A stretch of DNA of 64,000 bases from Paracoccus haematequi (GTDB taxonomy: Bacteria > Pseudomonadota > Alphaproteobacteria > Rhodobacterales > Rhodobacteraceae). The DNA lies in the NCBI RefSeq assembly GCF_900631945.1, contig NZ_UZWE01000033.1:1-64000 (forward strand), given 5' to 3'. Shown here one piece after another: positions 1 to 18,066 of the stretch. The stretch's first letter is position 1. Each line of letters opens with the position of its first letter. A program made the translations under genes and the position numbers. The notes beneath the pieces were generated by a model. The model searched no databases, was not told the origin of the DNA, and saw nothing but the letters and a program-made list of their open reading frames with translations.

Positions 1-1
1 C

Positions 2-76
2 TGGCACCAGTTCCTCGACGACTTCGTTAGCGATCCTGAACTCGCGCAACGCTTCAAGGCTCAACCGCCGCGGTAA
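2..76 (+). CDS. 3' end of an unidentified gene (partial)
   Basis: An open frame enters from outside the window and ends at a TAA at 74-76. It encodes 24 residues finishing in QPPR. It is too short to identify. The resolvase frame begins just after it, so the two are probably separate genes or the edges of a rearrangement. The reading frame is inferred only from its openness. Confidence 0.2.
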   Translation, partial: WHQFLDDFVSDPELAQRFKAQPPR

Positions 77-84
77 CAATCGGC

Positions 85-525
85 CGGTTACGTTCGGTCG
101 CCAAGCGGCAGCAACTTGAGGCTTGCCTGGACTACCTGAGAGAAGGTGACACGCTGATCGTCACCAAGCTGGACCGGCTGGCCCGCAACGTGGCGCACCT
201 GGGGCAACTTGTCGCGACCCTGAAGGCTAAGGGTGTGAGCCTGCGCATTCTGGACCTGGGCCTAGACACCAGCACCCCAACCGGCGAACTGATCCTGAAC
301 ATGATGGGGGCAGTCGCACAGTTCGAGCGTCAGATGATGCTGGAACGCCAACGGGAGGGCATCGCCAAGGCCAAGGCCGACGGCAAATACAGGGGCCGAG
401 CTCCCACGGCAATGAGACAGGCCCGTAGAGTCCATGAGCTGGCCGCTGAGGGGCTGAAGCGCTCCGACATAGCCCAGAGGCTAGGGCTGTCCGAAAGGTC
501 GGTCTACAGGGCTCTCAGCGTCTAG
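85..525 (+). pseudogene. Serine recombinase (resolvase/invertase), N-terminally truncated
   Basis: The frame encodes the second half of a resolvase catalytic domain (EACLDYLREGDTLIV, then TKLDRLAR with its conserved arginines). It continues with the E-helix/hinge segment (GELILNMMGAVAQFERQMM) and a C-terminal helix-turn-helix (RSDIAQRLGLSERSVYRAL). Family members are about 180-200 residues and carry the nucleophilic serine near residue 10 in a YxRVS motif. That region is absent here, and stops lie upstream at 28-30 and 37-39. A GTG at 190 could start a shorter product. It is probably a dead relic of a mobile element; a functional gene would need an upstream frameshift that I cannot see. Confidence 0.75.
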
Positions 526-609: not shown

Positions 610-1884
610 TCATTGCCTCCGCAACCTCATTGCTTTGCTCAAAGTCCGCGATAAGCGATGTCTTCGCTCATCACTCCAAGCCAAATCACAGAACTCATAG
701 AACTCACTAATCGATTTGAGTTTGTAAGGGTTGATTATAAAGTGCTTGAGCATTGGATGTATAAATTGGTTCATTTGATAAATAACAAGCTCGCTGTGCT
801 CTTGGTGAACTACGTGTCCGTGAGATAAAGAGTTCCGGCGCTCGGCTAGGTGAAAACCATAGATCGCAGCAAGCTTTGGATCATCGTAAAAGGCTGAAGC
901 TCGCTCCACTAGCTTGGAATACTTTGTGTCTCGGTCTCCTGCTAGGTGCTCCAAAACTCTCCATCCACCTAGGAAAGCCTCATCGACAGAATGATCACTA
1001 AACGCGTCATAGTATTTAATGATTGCATCTTCGGCTTTGCGATTAGGGTAAATAGACGATGTTATCTTTCTTAGCCAATCTTTCAAATGCTTCTTGAAGT
1101 CTTCGCCACGTCTTGGCAGACGACCAAAAGCAAGGTTTTCCGAGAAGCTCTTGACATGCCAAAACCCTTCAAAAGCTAAATCCCCGTTAGCCGTATGCAC
1201 TGTCATCTGTGGACCGATATGCACTTTTGCTAAGGGTTGTGGATGTCCGAAGCTTTTAACTCTTGAATGTGGAGCTGTTTCCATAAAAACGATGAGGCCA
1301 AGGATAACTCGTATTTCGCGGTAAGTTAATTCATATGCCTCAGTTGCAGAGCGAGCAGCAATGGTTGCCGTGCACCAGCGGGCTTTTTGCAACAGAGTAT
1401 CGAACCTTGTCTGGTGTTGAGGATAGCGTGCCAGAAGCTTTGCTCTTTCCCTAGCTGCTTTCTTGTAGAAGGAGCTGGATGTTGCGGGAGAAAAGTTAAG
1501 AGACACGTTGTTTCTATTAAAGCGACCGATGCATATATTGCTCAGGCCCAGTATAGGGAAAATCACAGAGAATTTCTTGCTGGGTATCTTATCCCGCTCT
1601 TTCTTGATTCTAAAGATTGCTTCTTTTAGGGAGCTCTCAGTGATGGTTTGGTGGTCCCGAATGGCTTTCTCAATAAGAATTTTTGCCTCTGTATCGGAGA
1701 CTTCTGTTATCCTTATATGGGAAAGCAGAACGCTCTCCCATTCAGATAAAGCAAAAAAATCAGTCGTCGAAATGCTTCCGTCTTTATTGACTACCCTACT
1801 TTGTGATATTTCCTGAAGAAGATATGGTATATCAGCAGGTGTCTTTTTCCACTCAATCTTCATCTCGGGCTTGTCGCCTTTCAT
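610..1884 (-). CDS. Uncharacterised protein with a HEPN-like RNxxxH motif
   Basis: This protein of about 424 residues belongs to no family I can name. Near residue 350 it has ERRNSLSHGH, which matches the R-N-x3-H signature of HEPN ribonucleases. The motif sits after a predicted helix (AFLGGWRVLEHLAG) and is followed by further helices, as in Apea-like HEPN domains. The N-terminal two thirds are mixed and unassigned. Base composition is AT-rich compared with the chromosome. Starts at GTG 1896, ATG 1884 and ATG 1863 are all possible, none with a strong ribosome binding site; I chose 1884. The gene converges on nothing and lies back to back with the polymerase-like gene at 1955. HEPN proteins often act in phage defence, so that role is an inference from motif and context. 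Confidence 0.7.
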   Translation of the reverse strand: MKGDKPEMKIEWKKTPADIPYLLQEISQSRVVNKDGSISTTDFFALSEWESVLLSHIRITEVSDTEAKILIEKAIRDHQTITESSLKEAIFRIKKERDKIPSKKFSVIFPILGLSNICIGRFNRNNVSLNFSPATSSSFYKKAARERAKLLARYPQHQTRFDTLLQKARWCTATIAARSATEAYELTYREIRVILGLIVFMETAPHSRVKSFGHPQPLAKVHIGPQMTVHTANGDLAFEGFWHVKSFSENLAFGRLPRRGEDFKKHLKDWLRKITSSIYPNRKAEDAIIKYYDAFSDHSVDEAFLGGWRVLEHLAGDRDTKYSKLVERASAFYDDPKLAAIYGFHLAERRNSLSHGHVVHQEHSELVIYQMNQFIHPMLKHFIINPYKLKSISEFYEFCDLAWSDERRHRLSRTLSKAMRLRRQ

Positions 1885-1954
1885 CGTTAACTTCACTGTT
1901 TGCGGTTGCTAACGATATGTAGATCAAGCCGCAGACGTTCTAACCAGGAATCAC

Positions 1955-3316
1955 ATGCTTAACACTTATCTGACCGCCGAGGCGACCAGGGACCATCTAA
2001 CTGCTGCTCGAATGGCCACGTTGCTGCACGAGGCCAAAAGCCCGGACGCCGTGGCCTTCCGAGAGGAGGTCTTGCCCCTTTTACACGAGTCCAAAGCAAA
2101 GGCTACGCTGGCCCGAGGAGAAAAGCCTCGAAACCCCACACGGAAGGCTTTCGAAAGTCATAGGAAAACACTGGACGCGATCCTGGCCGATCTCATCTGG
2201 GCATCCGACAACACTGAGGCGCTGGGCTACTGCTACCGGAGCGCCAATAGACAAGGCTTCACAGACGAAGCGACGGAAGCGACTTCACGAGTCTACGGAT
2301 GGCAGATGCCTGCTCTTGAGGATGTTGGGCTGCTAGAGCGCATGAAGGGGTTTTCCCGCCTAGAGGATTTCGACGGTGACATTGTTGCGTTCAAAGGCTG
2401 GGCAACCCGGATTAGGGCCACACCAGCGCTGCTTGACCTTGCCCAGCGTTATGGCATCAACGCCGCTAACCTTTATGACCATTACGTCAAGCGTAAGGCC
2501 GCGCTGAGCCAACCTGTCAGCCTGCGAGGTGGAAAGCACCAGGAAGAACGTGGTCCAATCCTTACCTGTCCGGACACAGAGCAAGTGGCAGAACTGCGGC
2601 GACAGGTTGAACGGATCAACGCGATCTACTCTCGTCACCACTTCGAAGGGATGCCAGAGCCCCTGGTTCGAAGAACGTTCAATTGTGCCGATAGCGAAGA
2701 CTTCGCCTTCAACAAAGGTGGCCGCCTCTACGCTGACTTCCAGGGCATGAGACGTGAAAGCAGGCCAAACATCCGCATCGACGGCCAGGAGGCCGTTGAA
2801 CTGGACCTGAAGGCATCGCAACTAACCATCCTCTATGGCATCACCAAGACACCAATGCCGGATGGCGACCCTTACGACATAGTCGGGCTGCCGCGATCCG
2901 TCGTGAAGGCAATCGTAACAGCCATGATCGGTCTCGGGCATACCAACATCAAGCGCTGGCCTAGTGAGAGCAAGAAACGCCTGATGGGTGAACTTGGGGG
3001 CGAACAGCCAATGACCTCCAAGACCTTCGGCAAGGTCTATCCGATCACGGCGACAGCAGCGAAAGTCTTGAAGCGCCATCCGGTCCTGTATCACCTGTCA
3101 CCGGAAAAGCTGGACTGGGCTGACCTTCAGTTCATCGAAAGCGAGGTGCTGATCTCCACTATCCTTGAGCTCGGAGAGAAATACGACATCCCGGCTCTGC
3201 CTATCCATGACAGCATCATCGTTCCCAAATCAGAAGATGAGTGGGGGCACATCTGTCTCGCCAACGCATTCAAGGCGCTTGTCGGGAGGAAGCCCTTAAT
3301 TGAGATGAAGGGATGA
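1955..3316 (+). CDS. Divergent family A DNA polymerase / single-subunit RNA polymerase-like protein
   Basis: This 453-residue protein has an AGGAA ribosome binding site upstream of its ATG. Three motifs appear in the order and at the spacing of Pol I/T7 RNA polymerase palms. Motif A is VELDLKASQLTILYG with D284. Motif B is RSVVKAIVTAMIGLG, with R314 and K318 spaced as in the O helix. Motif C is PIHDSIIVP, H418-D419-S420. The HDS form of motif C and the RSVxK of motif B resemble T7-type RNA polymerases more than Pol I (HDE). The usual O-helix aromatic positions are T322 and G326, and the Pol I steric-gate glutamate position is Q289. The N-terminal 230 residues are unassigned and no exonuclease domain is visible. 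It may replicate or prime the island, or act in defence; activity is unproven. Confidence 0.75.
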   Translation: MLNTYLTAEATRDHLTAARMATLLHEAKSPDAVAFREEVLPLLHESKAKATLARGEKPRNPTRKAFESHRKTLDAILADLIWASDNTEALGYCYRSANRQGFTDEATEATSRVYGWQMPALEDVGLLERMKGFSRLEDFDGDIVAFKGWATRIRATPALLDLAQRYGINAANLYDHYVKRKAALSQPVSLRGGKHQEERGPILTCPDTEQVAELRRQVERINAIYSRHHFEGMPEPLVRRTFNCADSEDFAFNKGGRLYADFQGMRRESRPNIRIDGQEAVELDLKASQLTILYGITKTPMPDGDPYDIVGLPRSVVKAIVTAMIGLGHTNIKRWPSESKKRLMGELGGEQPMTSKTFGKVYPITATAAKVLKRHPVLYHLSPEKLDWADLQFIESEVLISTILELGEKYDIPALPIHDSIIVPKSEDEWGHICLANAFKALVGRKPLIEMKG

Positions 3317-3493: not shown

Positions 3494-4972
3494 ATGCGCA
3501 ATCTTGAGCCTAAAACAGATAAAAGCCTTTTGAGTTGGTTGGGACTGTCTGACATTCCAGACTGGCGAGTCGCTCGACCGTTGGGATCTATAGTAGGATT
3601 TCTCCTTTCATCCATACTGCCTCTTCTCTTAATGTTAGCAGTCATTGCGGCATTTGCAGTGATGTGGCACACCATCAGGCTTGGAATATCTGGTGCGACG
3701 CAGGGCATAAATCTCGGCGCAGGTGCTCTAATTGCTACCTTGCTAGGTGCTCCTTTTCTGATATGGTCAACGATCTTGAAGCATCAAACTGTCCGATACC
3801 AGAAAGAGGGTCATATTACTGATCGTATAAACAAAGCCGTTGAACAGTTAGGGGCAGAGAAGCCTATTGAACGTATTGGCCGCGCTGTTACTATTTGGAC
3901 TGGACAGCCAGATCGAGCAGTTGTCTCATCAAGGGTCTTTAAAGCTTGGGCGGATAAGCCGCGAACGAAGTTTTCTGCCCCAGAAGTGAGAGAAGAATAC
4001 AATCACGAAACTGACGAGGTTGAGCAAGACTCTTGGCGCACGGCTTCTACTTGGCCGGAGGAAAGGACGATCATTCAATGGCAGAATGAGGACGTTAATC
4101 TAGAAGGGACCGAAACTGTAGGGGTGGAAGGGGCATGGCAGGTTTTTAAAGAAACGTCTCCAAATATAGAGGTCCGCACTGGAGGAATTTTGTCCTTGGA
4201 ACGGATTGCACAGGATAGTATCCGTTTTGACAATGGCAGAGATCATGTTCGCATCATGGAAATACTGTGTGCTTACATCAGAGAGAATACTGCAGTTCCA
4301 GACTTGGAGGAGAGCGCTGATAGAGTGAGGCCGTTCGTTCCAAGAACCGATGTTCAAATCGCTGTAGATGTCGTTAAACGAAGGAATGCTCAGCAGATTG
4401 AAAGGGAAGAGGCGGCTAAATATCGTTTGGATTTACGTCGTAGCGATCTGCGCGGCATGGATATGAGCCGGGGATCATTCAAAGGTGCGATACTAACTAG
4501 ATGTCGCTTTGAGTTTGCTAACCTGGATGATTCGGATTTTTCCGGCGCACGTTTTGATCACTCGGTCTTGAATTATCTCAGTTGCTACCGAACGTCTTTC
4601 GTGGGTGCGAACATGAATTGGTGTAGAATAAACAGGCCGGAGCCGGTTACTGGTGGGTTTGTGGCAAGCGTAAATATGGGAAACTTGACCGGCGTCTCTT
4701 TCATCGGAGCAAATATAATTTCACTCCAAGATATAGACAGAAATATTCAAACTTTTGGCACGAAGGATACCCGGCTTTTTGGGGAGCTGGACGAAGTTAG
4801 GCAGGAAAATTATAAACTTCGGAAGAACTCCAAATCTCCAAGTGACTCTGATTATAGAACTAAAATGTTTGATGCCTGGTCGGCACATGATTCTAGCGAC
4901 ATGGTAACAGGCCACCTTCTCGCAAAAATGCGCAAATCCCTGGATTTAAATGAGTGGCCATTCAGGGATTAA
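3494..4972 (+). CDS. Two-helix membrane protein with pentapeptide repeats
   Basis: This 492-residue protein has two hydrophobic helices at about residues 30-58 and 70-93. A helical stretch (ITDRINKAVEQLG) follows, then a segment typical of this family (GGILSLERIAQDS, IMEILCAYIREN). About twelve pentapeptide repeats lie around residues 312-385 (for example SDLRG, ANLDDSDFSG). Between the AVEQLG and ILSLERIA blocks sits an acidic insert of about 90 residues that shorter relatives lack. The C-terminus is polar. Related proteins are common in accessory regions of Rhodobacteraceae, and their function is unknown. Composition is AT-rich. No good ribosome binding site precedes the ATG, so the start is only probable. 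Confidence 0.8.
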   Translation: MRNLEPKTDKSLLSWLGLSDIPDWRVARPLGSIVGFLLSSILPLLLMLAVIAAFAVMWHTIRLGISGATQGINLGAGALIATLLGAPFLIWSTILKHQTVRYQKEGHITDRINKAVEQLGAEKPIERIGRAVTIWTGQPDRAVVSSRVFKAWADKPRTKFSAPEVREEYNHETDEVEQDSWRTASTWPEERTIIQWQNEDVNLEGTETVGVEGAWQVFKETSPNIEVRTGGILSLERIAQDSIRFDNGRDHVRIMEILCAYIRENTAVPDLEESADRVRPFVPRTDVQIAVDVVKRRNAQQIEREEAAKYRLDLRRSDLRGMDMSRGSFKGAILTRCRFEFANLDDSDFSGARFDHSVLNYLSCYRTSFVGANMNWCRINRPEPVTGGFVASVNMGNLTGVSFIGANIISLQDIDRNIQTFGTKDTRLFGELDEVRQENYKLRKNSKSPSDSDYRTKMFDAWSAHDSSDMVTGHLLAKMRKSLDLNEWPFRD

Positions 4973-5662
4973 GGGGCAATTTTAATCCTGTTAGCCAAGG
5001 GCTTCGTTCGGGATAGGGTGCTAAGATTAAATATTTCGCTCAGTAGAAATTCCAGACAGTGACCTTCTTCATGGCTAACCTGAAAAATCTCTCTACCTTC
5101 GATAGCGTCTGCTACATTAGTTGGCGCTGCAAGAGCTTTGAAACAATCTCTCATAGTATGACAAAAGCCGTCAATGGTTAGCCTTCACTTACCAGTTCGT
5201 TATCCTTAACTCACTTGCTGAAAGCAGTTGAGACCGATGCCGCATCAATCGGAAAGTCAGGCTTGCTTGGAGCAAAATTCGAAAATAGCAAGTCGCCCTC
5301 GGGGTCTTCAGGCCCCGTTCGGCTACCTATATTGCTTCACTACCAGAAGGATAGTGAGCTAGGAGTCATCGTTTCTTACCTGCAGAAGGACATGGGGCTT
5401 GTTGATGTGTGGAATAGTAGCATCCAGAACAACGTCTGACTTCCAGAGGTGATTATTTCCGAAATGGCTGGGCCTTGTGTCCGAGATCACGGCTATCGCC
5501 CAGCACGGTTGATGTTGGACTGCATACCTGACAATCCCAGCCTCACTTCGACTGACCGCCTTGCTCAGGATGTGGGCCACGTGTGGGGTATACGTGTGGG
5601 TTGCTTCGGGTGACCTCCCAAACAAACCAACCTTTTCAAGCGCTTATGAAAATGATAGAGAT
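4973..5662. other. Island end without a convincing gene
   Basis: This AT-rich stretch of 690 bases lies between the pentapeptide protein and the tRNA 3' end. It has only short frames: 4969-5154 minus (61 codons), 5215-5439 plus (74 codons) and 5359-5625 minus (88 codons). None has recognisable motifs, a clear ribosome binding site or host-like codon use. No integrase fragment is recognisable, although integrases often sit here in tRNA-borne islands. The segment probably carries the attachment-site arm and degenerate sequence. Confidence 0.5.
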
Positions 5663-5738
5663 TGGTGGAGCCGAGGGGAATCGAACCCCTGGCCTCGTCA
5701 TTGCGAACGACGCGCTCTACCAACTGAGCTACGGCCCC
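5663..5738 (-). tRNA. tRNA-Ala (anticodon CGC)
   Basis: On the minus strand a complete cloverleaf of 76 bases can be folded with CCA encoded. The acceptor stem GGGGCCG pairs with CGGCTCC and includes the G3:U70 wobble that identifies alanine tRNAs. The anticodon loop is TTCGCAA, giving anticodon CGC, and the T-arm contains GGTTCGATTCC. It lies 34 bases downstream of the P450 gene in the same direction. Its 3' end marks the abrupt change to the AT-rich island, so it is the likely integration target. Confidence 0.97.
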
Positions 5739-9645: not shown

Positions 9646-10823
9646 CCCAGGATCCGCATGGCCTGGGTCAGCCCGTCCAGCGTCAGCGGCATCATGCGGT
9701 TCTCGAAAATCCGCCCGATCATCGCGATGGACTGCGTATGGCCCCAATGCGCCTGCGGGACGGGGTTCAGCCAGACGTGATCGGGCCATGTCTCGGTCGC
9801 GCGGCGCAGCCAGACCTCGCCCGCCTCGGGGTTCCAGTGTTCGTTGGCGCCGCCGGGCACCGCGATCTCGTAGGGCGACATCGAGGCGTCGCCCACGAAG
9901 ATGCATTTATAGTCGCGGCCGAAGCGGTGCAGCACGTCCCAGGTCGGCGTCTGTTCGGTCCAGCGGCGGTGGTTGTCGGTCCACACGCCTTCGTAAAGGC
10001 AGTTGTGGAAATAGAAATGCTGCATGTGCTTGAATTCCGCGCGGGCGGCCGAGAACAGCTCGTCCACGACGCGGATATGGTCGTCCATCGACCCGCCCAC
10101 GTCCAGAAACAGCAGCACCTTGACGGCGTTGCGCCGTTCGGGCCGGGTCTGCACGTCGATATAGCCGTGGTCCGCCGTCGCGCGGATCGTGGCGAGCAGG
10201 TCCAGTTCGTCCGCCGCGCCATGCCGCGCCCATTGCCGCAGCCGCTTCAGCGCCACCTTGATGTTGCGGGTGCCCAGATCCACGCTGTCGTCGAAATCGC
10301 GGAACTCTCGCTTGTCCCAGACCTTGACCGCCCGGCGGTGGCGGGATTCGTGCTGGCCGATGCGCACGCCTTCGGGATTGTATCCATAGGCGCCGAAGGG
10401 CGAGGTGCCCGCCGTGCCGATCCACTTGCTGCCGCCCTGATGGCGGCCCTGTTGTTCGGCCAGCCGCTCGCGCAGCTTGTCCATCAGCGCCTCGAAACTG
10501 CCGCTGCCTTGGACTTCTGCCTTCTCGGCATCCGTCAGAAGCTTTTCGGCCAGCTTCTCCAGCCAGTCGCGGGGGATCGCCTGCTCGGTCACAAGGGCCT
10601 GGATTGGGATGGTTTCCAGGCCGGAAAACGCCTCGGCGAAGGCGCGGTCGAAGCGATCCAGGTGACGTTCGTCCTTGACCAGCGACAGCCGCGCCAGATG
10701 ATAGAAGCCGTCCACGGACCAATCGGCCAGACCGGCCTGCATTCCGGCCATCAGGTCCAGCCATTCCCGCAGCGACACCGGAACCCCGTGCCGGCGCAGG
10801 CTGTCCAGGAACGGCACGAACAT
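9642..10823 (-). CDS. VWA-domain protein (CoxE-like)
   Basis: This 393-residue cytoplasmic protein has an uncharacterised N-terminal half and a C-terminal von Willebrand A fold. The MIDAS-type motif DVGGSM is at about 241-246, with a glycine in place of the usual second variable position. Proteins of this kind usually work with MoxR-type AAA ATPases as insertion or maturation chaperones. No MoxR gene is adjacent; the AAA ATPase at 55.3 kb is CobS. The ATG lies within a TGATG overlap with the small membrane gene upstream and overlaps the DedA gene downstream. Confidence 0.88.
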   Translation of the reverse strand: MFVPFLDSLRRHGVPVSLREWLDLMAGMQAGLADWSVDGFYHLARLSLVKDERHLDRFDRAFAEAFSGLETIPIQALVTEQAIPRDWLEKLAEKLLTDAEKAEVQGSGSFEALMDKLRERLAEQQGRHQGGSKWIGTAGTSPFGAYGYNPEGVRIGQHESRHRRAVKVWDKREFRDFDDSVDLGTRNIKVALKRLRQWARHGAADELDLLATIRATADHGYIDVQTRPERRNAVKVLLFLDVGGSMDDHIRVVDELFSAARAEFKHMQHFYFHNCLYEGVWTDNHRRWTEQTPTWDVLHRFGRDYKCIFVGDASMSPYEIAVPGGANEHWNPEAGEVWLRRATETWPDHVWLNPVPQAHWGHTQSIAMIGRIFENRMMPLTLDGLTQAMRILG

Positions 10824-11005
10824 CACATCATCCGATCCAGGATCACGGTGGCGAACAGGCCCAGGACCGCCAAGGCCATGGCAAATCCCGCCGCGTATTG
10901 CGCGCGGTCCCGCCGGGTGCCGCCCAACTGCCCGGCGCGGCGCCAGCCGAGGATTGCGCCGATAAGGGCGGCGGCGATGACGATCATGACGGCTCCTTGG
11001 GACAT
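10823..11005 (-). CDS. Small two-helix membrane protein
   Basis: This 60-residue protein starts MSQGAVM. It has hydrophobic helices at about residues 4-19 and 39-56, separated by an arginine-rich loop (GWRRAGQLGGTRRDR), which suggests a hairpin with a cytoplasmic loop. A GGAGCC ribosome binding site precedes the ATG. Its stop overlaps the start of the VWA gene, so it heads this minus-strand operon. The function is unknown. Confidence 0.65.
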   Translation of the reverse strand: MSQGAVMIVIAAALIGAILGWRRAGQLGGTRRDRAQYAAGFAMALAVLGLFATVILDRMM

Positions 11006-11204
11006 GCGCTTGGCTTTCCTGATAGGCCGTGGCGCCATGCTGCGCAACCGGCCGGGCGGGGGCAGAGGTTTTTCCGCTGCCGCCGTTCGGTCCGGTCGAT
11101 GCGCCCGGCACCATCGACGTGCATCCGCATTTCATGAGCGGCAATGCCCGCCGCTGGATGGGCATCGACCGGCAGGGGGTCCGGCTGGCGGCCTTCTTCG
11201 GCGA

Positions 11205-12548
11205 TCACCCGGCCTGGACCGCAGTCGGGCCGCCCTGACCGCGCAGCATCGCGCGGAAGGCGTGCCAACTGGCCTTGGGCGTCCGCAACTGGGTCGCGTA
11301 ATCGACATGGACCAGCCCGAAGCGCGGACCATAGCCCCAAGCCCATTCGAAATTGTCCAGAAGCGACCAATAGAAGAAGCCGCGCAGATTGACGCCCGCC
11401 TCGATCGCCGCGCGGGCGGCGCGCAGGTGGTCGCCGATGAAGGCGACGCGGCGCGGATCGGCGGCGATGTCGGGACCGGCAGCCTCGGCCATGCCGTTTT
11501 CGGTGACGACGATCGGCAGGCTGCCGACATGGTCTCGGGACAGGCGGGTCAGGAACTCGGTCAGCCCCTCGGGCCGGATCTCCCAGCCCATCTGGGTCTT
11601 GGGCAGGGGGCCGTCCACCGCGCGGTCATGCGGCCACAGCGCGCCGTCGCCCGCGTAAAGCCTGCGGGTGTAATAGTTCACGCCCAGCCAGTCGATGGGC
11701 TGGGAAATCCGCTCCATATCGGCTTGCCAGCCCTGCGGCAGGTGCGGTTCCAAACCGTCGAGCGCCCTCTGCGGATAGCCCTGGCCCATGATCGCGCGAA
11801 TGAACCACTGGTTATAGATCGCGTCCTGCACCTCGGCCGCGCGGATGGCGGCCGGGCCGTCGTCGGCGGGATGCGCGGTTTCGAAATTCAGGACGATGCC
11901 CAGGTTCCGCGCGCCACCGGCCCGCAGCGCCTGCGTCGCGGTGCCATGGGCCAGCAGGACATGGTGCATGGCGCGGGCGGCGGCGCGGATGTCGCGCAGG
12001 CCGGGGGCGTGGTGGCCCAGGAAATGCGACAGCCAGGCGATGCACCACGGCTCGTTCAGGGTGGCCGTGCTGGCCAGCCGGTCGCCCAGACGCGCATGCA
12101 GCGTGGCGCAGTAATCGGCGAAGCGCGCGGCGATGTCGCGGTTCCGCCAGCCGCCGATATCCGACAGCGCGGCGGGCAGATCCCAGTGATAGCAGGTCAG
12201 GTGCGGCTGAAGGCCCCGTTCGACCATCCCGTCCACCAGCCGGTCATAGAAATCCAGCCCCTGCGAGTTCACCGTGAGCCCGTCCGGCATCACCCGCGCC
12301 CACGAGGCCGAGAAGCGATAGGCCGAAAACCCCGCGTCTCGGATCAGGTCCAGATCTTCCTGCCAGCGGTGGTAATGGTCGCAGGCGATGCTGCCGTCGC
12401 TGGCATCCGCGATGGTGCCGGGCGTTGCGGCGAAGGTGTCCCAGTGCGACAGACCCGCGCCGCCATGGCTGGACCCCTCGATCTGATAGGCGGATGCGGC
12501 GACGCCGAAGGTGAAGTCGGGCGGGAAGGTCGCACGGTCTGGCAGCAT
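11205..12548 (-). CDS. bglA: GH1 beta-glucosidase
   Basis: This 447-residue cytoplasmic retaining beta-glycosidase belongs to family GH1. The N-terminal FGVAASAYQIEG signature is at about 14-25. The acid/base is in TLNEPW (E166) and the nucleophile in VTENG (E350). Length is standard and there is no signal peptide. The natural substrate is probably a beta-glucoside disaccharide taken up by a transporter that is not in this window. It starts ten bases after sitD and may be transcribed with the manganese transporter, an odd pairing. Confidence 0.95.
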   Translation of the reverse strand: MLPDRATFPPDFTFGVAASAYQIEGSSHGGAGLSHWDTFAATPGTIADASDGSIACDHYHRWQEDLDLIRDAGFSAYRFSASWARVMPDGLTVNSQGLDFYDRLVDGMVERGLQPHLTCYHWDLPAALSDIGGWRNRDIAARFADYCATLHARLGDRLASTATLNEPWCIAWLSHFLGHHAPGLRDIRAAARAMHHVLLAHGTATQALRAGGARNLGIVLNFETAHPADDGPAAIRAAEVQDAIYNQWFIRAIMGQGYPQRALDGLEPHLPQGWQADMERISQPIDWLGVNYYTRRLYAGDGALWPHDRAVDGPLPKTQMGWEIRPEGLTEFLTRLSRDHVGSLPIVVTENGMAEAAGPDIAADPRRVAFIGDHLRAARAAIEAGVNLRGFFYWSLLDNFEWAWGYGPRFGLVHVDYATQLRTPKASWHAFRAMLRGQGGPTAVQAG

Positions 12549-16580: not shown

Positions 16581-16936
16581 TGCAGGTCTTCGACAAGATC
16601 ATCTCGGATCGGGGGTCGCGCTATGCGGTGTCGGGCGGGGCGGCGGCCAGCCGGGCCGAGGTCGCGGCGCTGCTGGCGGAACTGACGCGCGACAAGCGGT
16701 TCGCCAAGGCCACGCATCACAGTTGGGCGGCGGTCCTGGCGGGCGAGCCGGTCAAAGACGACGACGGCGAAGCGGGTGCCGGTGCGCTGATCCTGCAAAT
16801 GCTGGAGCGCGCCGGGCTGCGCGATCAAGCGGTGATCGTGACCCGCTGGTATGGCGGCAAGCATCTGGGCGGCGACCGCTTCCGCCATGTGGCGGAGGCG
16901 GTCAGGATTTATCTGCGCGAGACCGGCTTGGGTTAG
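16580..16936 (+). CDS. YigZ/IMPACT N-terminal domain protein (UPF0029)
   Basis: This 118-residue protein has the UPF0029 core: a KATHHSWAAVL segment, DDDGEAGAGALILQMLE and VTRWYGGKHLGGDRF. It corresponds to the N-terminal domain of YigZ/IMPACT only; the C-terminal domain of about 80 residues is absent, so it is a single-domain version. The biochemical role is unknown, though IMPACT affects translation control in eukaryotes. The ATG overlaps the stop of the fur-like gene and the 3' end overlaps the convergent oxidoreductase by four bases. Confidence 0.88.
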   Translation: MQVFDKIISDRGSRYAVSGGAAASRAEVAALLAELTRDKRFAKATHHSWAAVLAGEPVKDDDGEAGAGALILQMLERAGLRDQAVIVTRWYGGKHLGGDRFRHVAEAVRIYLRETGLG

Positions 16937-17952
16937 CGCCAGCCAAGCGCCGGGGCGACGTGGCGCAGGATGCTGTCCAGCACATGGACGTTGTAATCCA
17001 CGCCCAGCATGTTCGGCACCGTCAGCAGCAGGGTATCGGCCTCGGCGATGGCCTCGTCGTCGCGCAACTGGTCCACCAGGCAGTCGGGTTCGTCGGCATA
17101 GCTGCGCCCGAACACGGCGCGATAGTTGTCGATGTTGCCGATCTGGTCGCTGTCCTTGCCGCCGCGCCCGAAATAGCGGCGGTCCATGTCGTTGACCAGG
17201 GCGAAGATCGACCGGCTGACCGACACGCGCGGGGTCCGCCGATGGCCCGCAGCCTTCCAGGCGTCGCGATAGATGCGGATCTGGCGGGCCTGCTGGACAT
17301 GGAACGGCTCGCCCGATTCATCCACTTTCAGGGTCGAGCTTTGCAGGTTCATGCCCATCCGCGCCGCCCATTCAGCCGTCGCGTTCGAGGCCGATCCCCA
17401 CCAGATCCGGTCGCGCAGACCTTCGGAATGGGGTTCCAGCCGCAACAGGCCCGGCGGGTTCGGAAACATCAGGCGCGGGTTCGGCCGCGCGAAGCCCTTG
17501 CCCTCAAGCTGTTGCAGGAACACCTCGGTATGACGGCGGGCCATGTCTTGGTCGGTCTCGCCCTCGGCGGGGTGATAGCCGAAGTGGCGCCAGCCATCGA
17601 CGACCTGTTCGGGGCTGCCCCGGCTGATGCCCAGTTGCAGCCGCCCGCCCGAGATCAGGTCGGCCGCCCCCGCGTCCTCGACCATGTACAGCGGGTTTTC
17701 ATAGCGCATGTCGATGACGCCGGTGCCGATCTCGATCCGGCTGGTGCGCGCGCCGACGGCCGCCAGCAGCGGGAACGGAGAGGCCAGTTGGCGGGCGAAG
17801 TGATGCACGCGGAAATAGGCGCCATCCGCGCCCAGCTCCTCGGCCGCAACCGCCAGATCGATGGATTGCAGCAGCACGTCCTGGGCGGTGCGGACCTGGG
17901 ATCCGGGTTCCGGCGACCAGTGGCCGAAGGACAGAAAGCCGATCTTCTTCAT
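16933..17952 (-). CDS. LLM-class flavin-dependent oxidoreductase
   Basis: This 339-residue cytoplasmic protein has the bacterial-luciferase-like TIM barrel. Characteristic pieces are the first strand KIGFLSFGHW, GADGAYFRVHHF, RIEIGTGVIDMRYENPLYMVEDAG at about 72-95, and GRLQLGISRGSP. It should use FMNH2 or F420-type flavin to oxidise an unknown substrate. It is monocistronic and converges on the YigZ-like gene. Confidence 0.87.
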   Translation of the reverse strand: MKKIGFLSFGHWSPEPGSQVRTAQDVLLQSIDLAVAAEELGADGAYFRVHHFARQLASPFPLLAAVGARTSRIEIGTGVIDMRYENPLYMVEDAGAADLISGGRLQLGISRGSPEQVVDGWRHFGYHPAEGETDQDMARRHTEVFLQQLEGKGFARPNPRLMFPNPPGLLRLEPHSEGLRDRIWWGSASNATAEWAARMGMNLQSSTLKVDESGEPFHVQQARQIRIYRDAWKAAGHRRTPRVSVSRSIFALVNDMDRRYFGRGGKDSDQIGNIDNYRAVFGRSYADEPDCLVDQLRDDEAIAEADTLLLTVPNMLGVDYNVHVLDSILRHVAPALGWR

Positions 17953-18066
17953 GAATTTCCCTTGCTGCGCGGGATTGCGCGTTACCGGGGATGTAGGGTC
18001 CGGCCCCGCGCCGCCGCAAGGTTCACCGGCGCGCAGGGGCTGTGCGCCGATGTGCGCACCGACCCG

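Follow-up and report, generated by a model that had tools for sequence, protein, structure and literature searches.

A predicted TV-Pol polymerase on a likely mobile island of Paracoccus haematequi and its kinship with phage divPolA2

Described relatives and the locus

TV-Pol, a polymerase family defined by Iyer, Abhiman and Aravind in 2008 by two aspartates, an RxxxK motif and a hairpin with a conserved arginine, comprises stand-alone proteins, forms combined with a D5-like helicase and forms bearing an N-terminal domain; the last of these adjoin gamma-delta resolvases, phage-type integrases or transposases (PMC2579912). The species aligned in that work include Paracoccus denitrificans and Roseovarius nubinhibens, primase and polymerase activity was predicted for the family, and a mixture of DNA polymerase I (Pol I) and T7 RNA polymerase (T7 RNAP) features was proposed as the ancestral state (PMC2579912). 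Here we describe a TV-Pol gene at positions 1955 to 3316 of a stretch of 64,000 nucleotides from Paracoccus haematequi (GCF_900631945.1, contig NZ_UZWE01000033.1, positions 1 to 64,000; hereafter the window), where it forms part of a likely mobile island beside a tRNA-Ala gene.

Two other systems are relevant. CCPol of SCCmec type V primes DNA together with its partner MP, as shown biochemically, and only extends primers without MP; it uses deoxynucleoside triphosphates (dNTPs), retains the equivalents of E710 and F762, and its inclusion in TV-Pol is cited by its own authors (PMC7581432). MP is predicted to have an OB fold, and the finding has been extended to PolA-SSB pairs in Bacillota (PMC10061031). 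In 2024 divPolA2 of Vibrio phages and barbaviruses was called a novel phage Pol A; its N-terminal domain was reported to have no detectable similarity, and a role as repair polymerase or RNA polymerase was suggested (PMC11348598).

Active site, fold and family of the window polymerase

The polymerase gene and its parts are as follows (aa, amino acids).

1955..3316, + strand: TV-Pol gene, 453 aa, ATG start; N-terminal domain aa 1-205, thumb/palm/fingers aa ~206-453
1955..2569, + strand: N-terminal domain, aa 1-205, predicted to be winged-helix-like and, by profile comparison, common to phage divPolA2
2804..2821, + strand: motif A, D284 to Q289 (DLKASQ), with Q289 at the steric-gate position, from sequence and residue census
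2894..2932, + strand: motif B and fingers helix, R314 to G326, with R314 and K318, and T322 and G326 where aromatics are expected
3206..3214, + strand: motif C, H418-D419-S420

In the translated open reading frame (ORF), D284 lies in VELDLKAS with Q289 at D+5, R314 and K318 lie in RSVVK with T322 at R+8 and G326 at R+12, and H418-D419-S420 lies within PIHDSII. A search of 5.8 billion proteins, in which the 7996 candidates with the most shared words were scored, returned 54 proteins at E <= 1e-3, the query counted, which rules out a protein unique to the P. haematequi genome. In alignment A1, which holds 48 of these 54 (six partial or weak ones were omitted), D284, K318, E395, H418 and D419 are each invariant (48/48), R314 is present in 47/48 and S420 in 44/48; D284 and D419 are also kept in 54/54 genome loci, the window counted. 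Such conservation of the motif residues exceeds chance by far. GGR257 is likewise invariant (48/48) and falls in strand 255-259 of the predicted model, a position from which we infer that it is the absolutely conserved beta-hairpin arginine that precedes the palm in TV-Pol.

As read from the fetched genes, E. coli PolA has DYSQIE, RRSAKAINFGLIY and HDE, and T7 RNAP has DGSCSG, RSVTKRSVMTLAY and HDS, so that D+5, R+8, R+12 and motif C are E/F/Y/HDE in the former and G/M/Y/HDS in the latter; the ungapped spacing to the motif residues suggests that these positions are equivalent in Pol A, T7 RNAP and TV-Pol. At the gate position, A1 has H in 23, Q in 20, Y in 2, F in 2 and A in 1, and Glu in none. 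R+8 is T in 40, N in 4, Q in 3 and V in 1, and R+12 is G in 40, S in 3, H in 3, A in 1 and N in 1, with Tyr in none. A reverse-transcriptase reading was dropped because motif C is HDS; reverse transcriptases have xDD there.

The predicted structure of the window protein (pLDDT 89.6, pTM 0.81) holds the right-hand palm and fingers of the Pol A / T7 RNAP superfamily, and in structure comparison it matches the T7 and mitochondrial RNA polymerases as well as it does Pol A. Residues 1-205 are predicted with confidence as a separate domain of helices and a winged-helix-like unit with a beta wing. Neither an exonuclease domain nor a T7-type promoter-binding domain was recognised in the protein. Pfam, NCBIfam and PADLOC returned no match, phmmer and hmmsearch against Protein Data Bank sequences gave nothing relevant, and an IMG/VR scan using the protein alone gave zero stretches; in the same genome, PF00476 (DNA_pol_A) matches one other gene only, the host Pol A. 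Since profile-profile comparison misses both Pol A and T7 RNAP, the link to these polymerases rests on the predicted structure and the motif spacing.

The features above fit the 2008 definition, and the window protein therefore belongs to TV-Pol, a family that is already known. Exactly one TV-Pol profile match (locus L037) is present in the genome of Roseovarius nubinhibens, a species listed in PMC2579912, and L037 may well be the gene aligned there. The initial annotation, made from the sequence alone, had named D284, R314/K318, HDS, a gate Gln and O-helix Thr and Gly in a polymerase fold; these residues are present and conserved in A1, the predicted structure contains the palm, and the conservation of D284 and D419 among homologues, on which that annotation had let its reading depend, was found in 48/48 each. 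The mixture of Pol I and T7 RNAP features that it pointed out corresponds to the ancestral state proposed in PMC2579912. It saw no exonuclease in 453 residues, and we see none either, but the protein is more than palm and fingers, aa 1-205 being a separate predicted domain. Its "poorly described family" was only partly right, as TV-Pol was described in 2008 and the distant CCPol-MP has been shown to prime.

The family also reaches into phages. The phage match H12 is AUR84708, the published divPolA2 representative. Alignment A2 holds 28 of the 30 divPolA2-like proteins found (two short ones were omitted), and its profile matched that of A1 with a hhalign probability of 99.8% (E 8.7e-29, 377 columns, aa 29-445), the N-terminal domain included; by this profile comparison, TV-Pol and divPolA2 are homologous, also in the N-terminal domain. 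No connection between the two was found in the titles or abstracts of the literature searched. In PMC11348598 the term TV-Pol appears once, in the background section and unrelated to divPolA2, and the term divPolA2 was met in a preprint and the article.

A census of the gate covered the 48 A1 proteins, 53 genome loci (in partial overlap with A1), seven further phage proteins (7/12 other phage records, the remaining five being left out) and the 28 divPolA2-like proteins. Glu is absent from the genome loci (H 33, Q 11, Y 5, F 2, S 1, L 1) and from the further phage proteins (H 6, Q 1), and motif C has Ser in 44/48 A1 proteins, 51/53 genome loci and 7/7 further phage proteins. All 28 proteins of the divPolA2-like set have Glu both at the gate and in motif C, where the His is replaced by Phe in 27 and by Tyr in one. 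In a FastTree phylogeny of 132 of the 136 sequences, the divPolA2-like clade has a support of 0.999 and groups, at 0.9, with all but one of the seven other phage proteins; this phage group is then joined by six and next by two bacterial sequences, at 0.795 and 0.978, and support is poor at deeper nodes. The gate and motif C residues thus differ jointly from one branch to the other, and this may be one event. A TV-Pol relative that combines HDS with a gate Gln is encoded in a metagenomic phage record of 735 kb (LR756501, L179).

Recombinases, tRNA genes and the probable Paracoccus haematequi island

The neighbourhood was examined in 69 loci: the window, 52 from GTDB genomes, and 16 of 22 places in 19/196 genomes (own genome counted). 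In all-against-all clustering, two neighbours stand out as recurrent: a small serine resolvase, in 45/69 loci, and a tyrosine integrase, likewise in 45/69, which in the three examples tested consists of DUF6538 plus Phage_integrase. The clusters that follow, with 16, 8 and 6 loci, are made up of ORFs overlying the core genes, and independent clusters comprise five loci or fewer each. Among the loci with 5 kb on both sides, 34/46 have the resolvase within that distance, 29/46 the integrase, 39/46 either and 24/46 both, which agrees with the mobile-element setting initially proposed. In the 33 loci with 9-kb flanks, recombinases contrast between near and far positions by 23 versus 6 and 20 versus 6.

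Integrases are in turn linked to tRNA genes: among the 60 loci scanned for tRNAs, 42 have an integrase ORF, and 18 of those 42 show a tRNA that ends 55-113 bp before an integrase; in 12 of the 18, this integrase is within 1 kb of the polymerase or fused to it. The polymerase starts 150 bp or less after the integrase in 9/69 loci, once after a 115-aa fragment. In Bradyrhizobium japonicum in8p8 (L050:8132-11272), integrase and TV-Pol form a single ORF of 1046 aa, 87 bp after tRNA-Glu; because the two genes are only 85 and 83 bp apart in its relatives L060 and L061, this fusion may be a simple stop loss or a sequencing error. In another protein (P0093, 702 aa), the N-terminal part of an integrase is joined to a polymerase core without the N-terminal domain. 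No recurrent partner emerged among 112 neighbours (drawn from 170 ORFs, some surely spurious) in the best 25 families each from Pfam (of 79) and from PADLOC (of 221); the commonest Pfam family occurs in 3/112, and no helicase family is among those best 25 of 79. Restriction-modification cargo was confirmed in L076 and L079.

The remaining features of the island in the window are as follows.

1..91, no strand: end of a multicopy insertion sequence at the contig edge; 10 places in the own genome, the present one counted
92..525, + strand: C-terminal portion of a small serine resolvase whose gene is interrupted by the insertion sequence; Pfam Resolvase 2.1e-17, tblastn matches begin at 85-94
610..1896, − strand: cargo ORF, 428 aa; best match E 0.02 or worse in Pfam, PHROGs, NCBIfam and PADLOC; RRNSLSH near the C-terminus
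3494..4972, + strand: cargo ORF, 492 aa, with a hydrophobic N-terminus and, towards the C-terminus, pentapeptide repeats; Pfam PF00805 1.7e-12
5038..5520, − strand: remains of a decayed tyrosine integrase, spread over several frames; best tblastn match 4.6e-8 with neighbour integrases as queries
5663..5738, − strand: tRNA-Ala (cgc), its 3' end being the likely attachment site of the island

The RRNSLSH segment resembles the RxxxxH motif of HEPN RNases, and in Pfam the two cargo proteins show neither an OB-fold partner nor a D5-type helicase. The N-terminal 44 aa of the resolvase lie at the edge of another contig (C18:88-219), and 17 bp of the tRNA-Ala 3' end recur without mismatch at C18:2006-2022, beside an intact integrase of 437 aa. 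Therefore, C18:1-2026 (L151), with the intact integrase, the N-terminal part of the resolvase and the tRNA 3'-end copy, is likely the other half of the island, which in this draft assembly would then measure ~7.5 kb plus the insertion sequence, provided that C18 and C19 meet there; a junction at the insertion sequence is likely because the resolvase gene is split across the contigs. As the resolvase is split and the tRNA-side integrase decayed, the present mobility of this copy is in doubt.

The polymerase gene itself is intact and looks kept by purifying selection. The genome has another copy (C25, L076), which encodes a TV-Pol 71% identical to that of the window, together with an integrase remnant, tRNA-Ala(ggc) and a protein with HSDR_N and N6-methylase domains; all catalytic residues are present in both TV-Pols, and dN/dS between them is 0.166 (NG86; dS > 1). 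In five genomes (L156-L160) with the same P450 side of tRNA-Ala, the other side varies and only L156 and L160 are alike; because it differs in nearly each genome, the site looks like an integration hotspot, and none of these five shows an exact empty site.

Two arrangements elsewhere in the family stand apart. Five TV-Pols (P0086-P0090) carry an extra N-terminal ~150-220 aa with GHHRIAAY-like segments, which we take to resemble ParB (Pfam, run on P0089 alone, found nothing). Microvirga zambiensis (L035) has two TV-Pols, at 9908-11335 and 16622-17983, on opposite strands and 5 kb apart, with an integrase and tRNA-Leu between them.

Proposed function and rival explanations

We consider it somewhat probable that the window protein is a stand-alone A-family TV-Pol that starts and extends new strands on the excised island, with no separate primase needed. 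Gene order and the att-like repeat suggest that the integrase would excise the island at the tRNA 3' end. The winged-helix-like N-terminal domain might then hold island DNA or a single-stranded template in cis, a job that in CCPol would fall to the separate OB-fold MP. The palm with D284 and D419 would make a primer de novo and extend it, as the TV-Pol proposal and CCPol-MP lead one to expect, so that the circle could be copied and survive outside the chromosome, after which the serine resolvase would part joined copies and the integrase would reinsert the island. Because the Glu of the sugar gate and the O-helix aromatic are missing, we predict a greater acceptance of ribonucleotides than in Pol I or CCPol. 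The early suspicion of priming or ribonucleotide use is reasonable, and the suggestion of synthesis without a normal template found no support.

Several observations weigh against this proposal. We know of no close relative whose activity has been established, and the distant CCPol-MP is, to our knowledge, the sole TV-Pol to have been tested. CCPol needs MP for priming, uses dNTPs and has both Glu and Phe (PMC7581432). Neither a helicase nor an OB-fold partner could be recognised next to the polymerase gene, and the eight short regions examined held no convincing iteron-like array as an origin. Hhalign gave a probability of only 1.4% against a Pol A profile (built from E. coli Pol A and 17 of the 31 Pol A loci fetched; the 14 omitted had stops in the stretch as read, most likely a strand matter) and of 0.3% against T7 RNAP, represented by one sequence. 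The winged-helix match of the N-terminal domain is under the significance threshold. Seven of the 46 loci (L026, L040, L045, L055, L065, L081, L083) have neither recombinase, and the integrase and resolvase hidden Markov models derive from these same loci, which leaves the near/far contrast as the sole control. Finally, of the records for the seven HDS phage proteins, six carry annotation around the gene (the seventh is without annotation), and none of these six stretches has an annotated recombinase, so the family is not always tied to islands.

Two rival readings are the strongest, a gap filler that depends on primers and an RNA polymerase. That the protein fills gaps or repairs junctions at excision and integration, as a primer-dependent DNA polymerase, would suit the tight integrase linkage, the one fused ORF, and the mere primer extension of CCPol without MP (PMC7581432). 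Such an enzyme is nevertheless unlikely, as the host Pol A is encoded in the same genome and the need for filling is doubtful: tyrosine recombinases leave no gaps. Quite improbable in our judgement is a single-subunit RNA polymerase transcribing island genes, an idea raised for divPolA2 in 2024 (PMC11348598). The equally good matches to T7 and mitochondrial RNA polymerases, the HDS of motif C and the non-Glu gate are as in T7 RNAP, but a T7-type promoter-binding domain was not recognised, the T7 motif B Tyr at R+12 is Gly in 40/48 and Tyr in 0/48, the divPolA2-like set is itself DNA-polymerase-like with Glu at both the gate and motif C in 28/28, and the eight short regions share no promoter-like repeat.

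A cargo gene outside the mobility core, encoding a defence or host-takeover enzyme of a defence island, is very unlikely: zero PADLOC models match, the polymerase stays with recombinases while other neighbours vary, and it lies directly behind the integrase in 9/69 loci and is fused to it once. The broken resolvase and tRNA-side integrase of the window copy, and a stop codon within the match in 3/22 places among relatives, might be taken to indicate a decayed relic, which the intact catalytic residues in both own copies and a dN/dS of about 0.16 make scarcely credible.

Beyond the proposed copying of the island, we put forward, as a tentative and rather doubtful extension, that TV-Pol comprises two chemistries. 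The island branch, without both Glu residues, would be a single-chain primase that initiates strands with ribonucleotides and whose winged-helix domain takes the place of the single-strand-binding partner of CCPol, and phage divPolA2, with both, would be a deoxy-only DNA polymerase, not an RNA polymerase.

Comparison with known systems

Almost all known primases fall in two structural families (PMC10061031), and TV-Pols are a candidate third source, as predicted in 2008. Their island branch is small and single-chain and carries a natural change at the residue by which Pol I discriminates between RNA and DNA building blocks, and so bears on priming by a Pol A core and on the divergence of the superfamily's DNA and RNA polymerases. 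To a known family, the present analysis adds its union with divPolA2, the pairing of active-site states and the integrase fusion; the first of these places an unexplained phage protein in a family and leads to an expectation that can be tested.

DNA polymerase I has HDE, a Glu gate and a DNA_pol_A match, whereas the window protein has HDS, Q289 and zero Pfam matches, and T7-type RNA polymerase has Tyr at R+12 where the window protein has G326. The sole significant match in the family libraries is PHROG 4756, of unknown function (E 4.9e-28, aa 118-445). The TV-Pol subset with an N-terminal domain is like the window protein in its two catalytic Asp, RxxxK fingers, beta-hairpin Arg, similar size, extra N-terminal domain and resolvase or phage-type integrase neighbours; that domain is all-helical in PMC2579912, whereas the present model has helices and a winged-helix-like unit with a beta wing, and the sugar gate, Q289 here, lies outside the discussion in that text. 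CCPol-MP is likewise an A-family polymerase on an element with a serine recombinase, but it works with a second protein, MP, and a helicase, is without the N-terminal domain of many TV-Pols, and keeps the E710 and F762 equivalents where the window protein has Q289 and T322. Phage divPolA2 combines a Glu gate with (F/Y)DE, whereas the window protein, which lies outside the divPolA2-like clade, combines Q289 with HDS.
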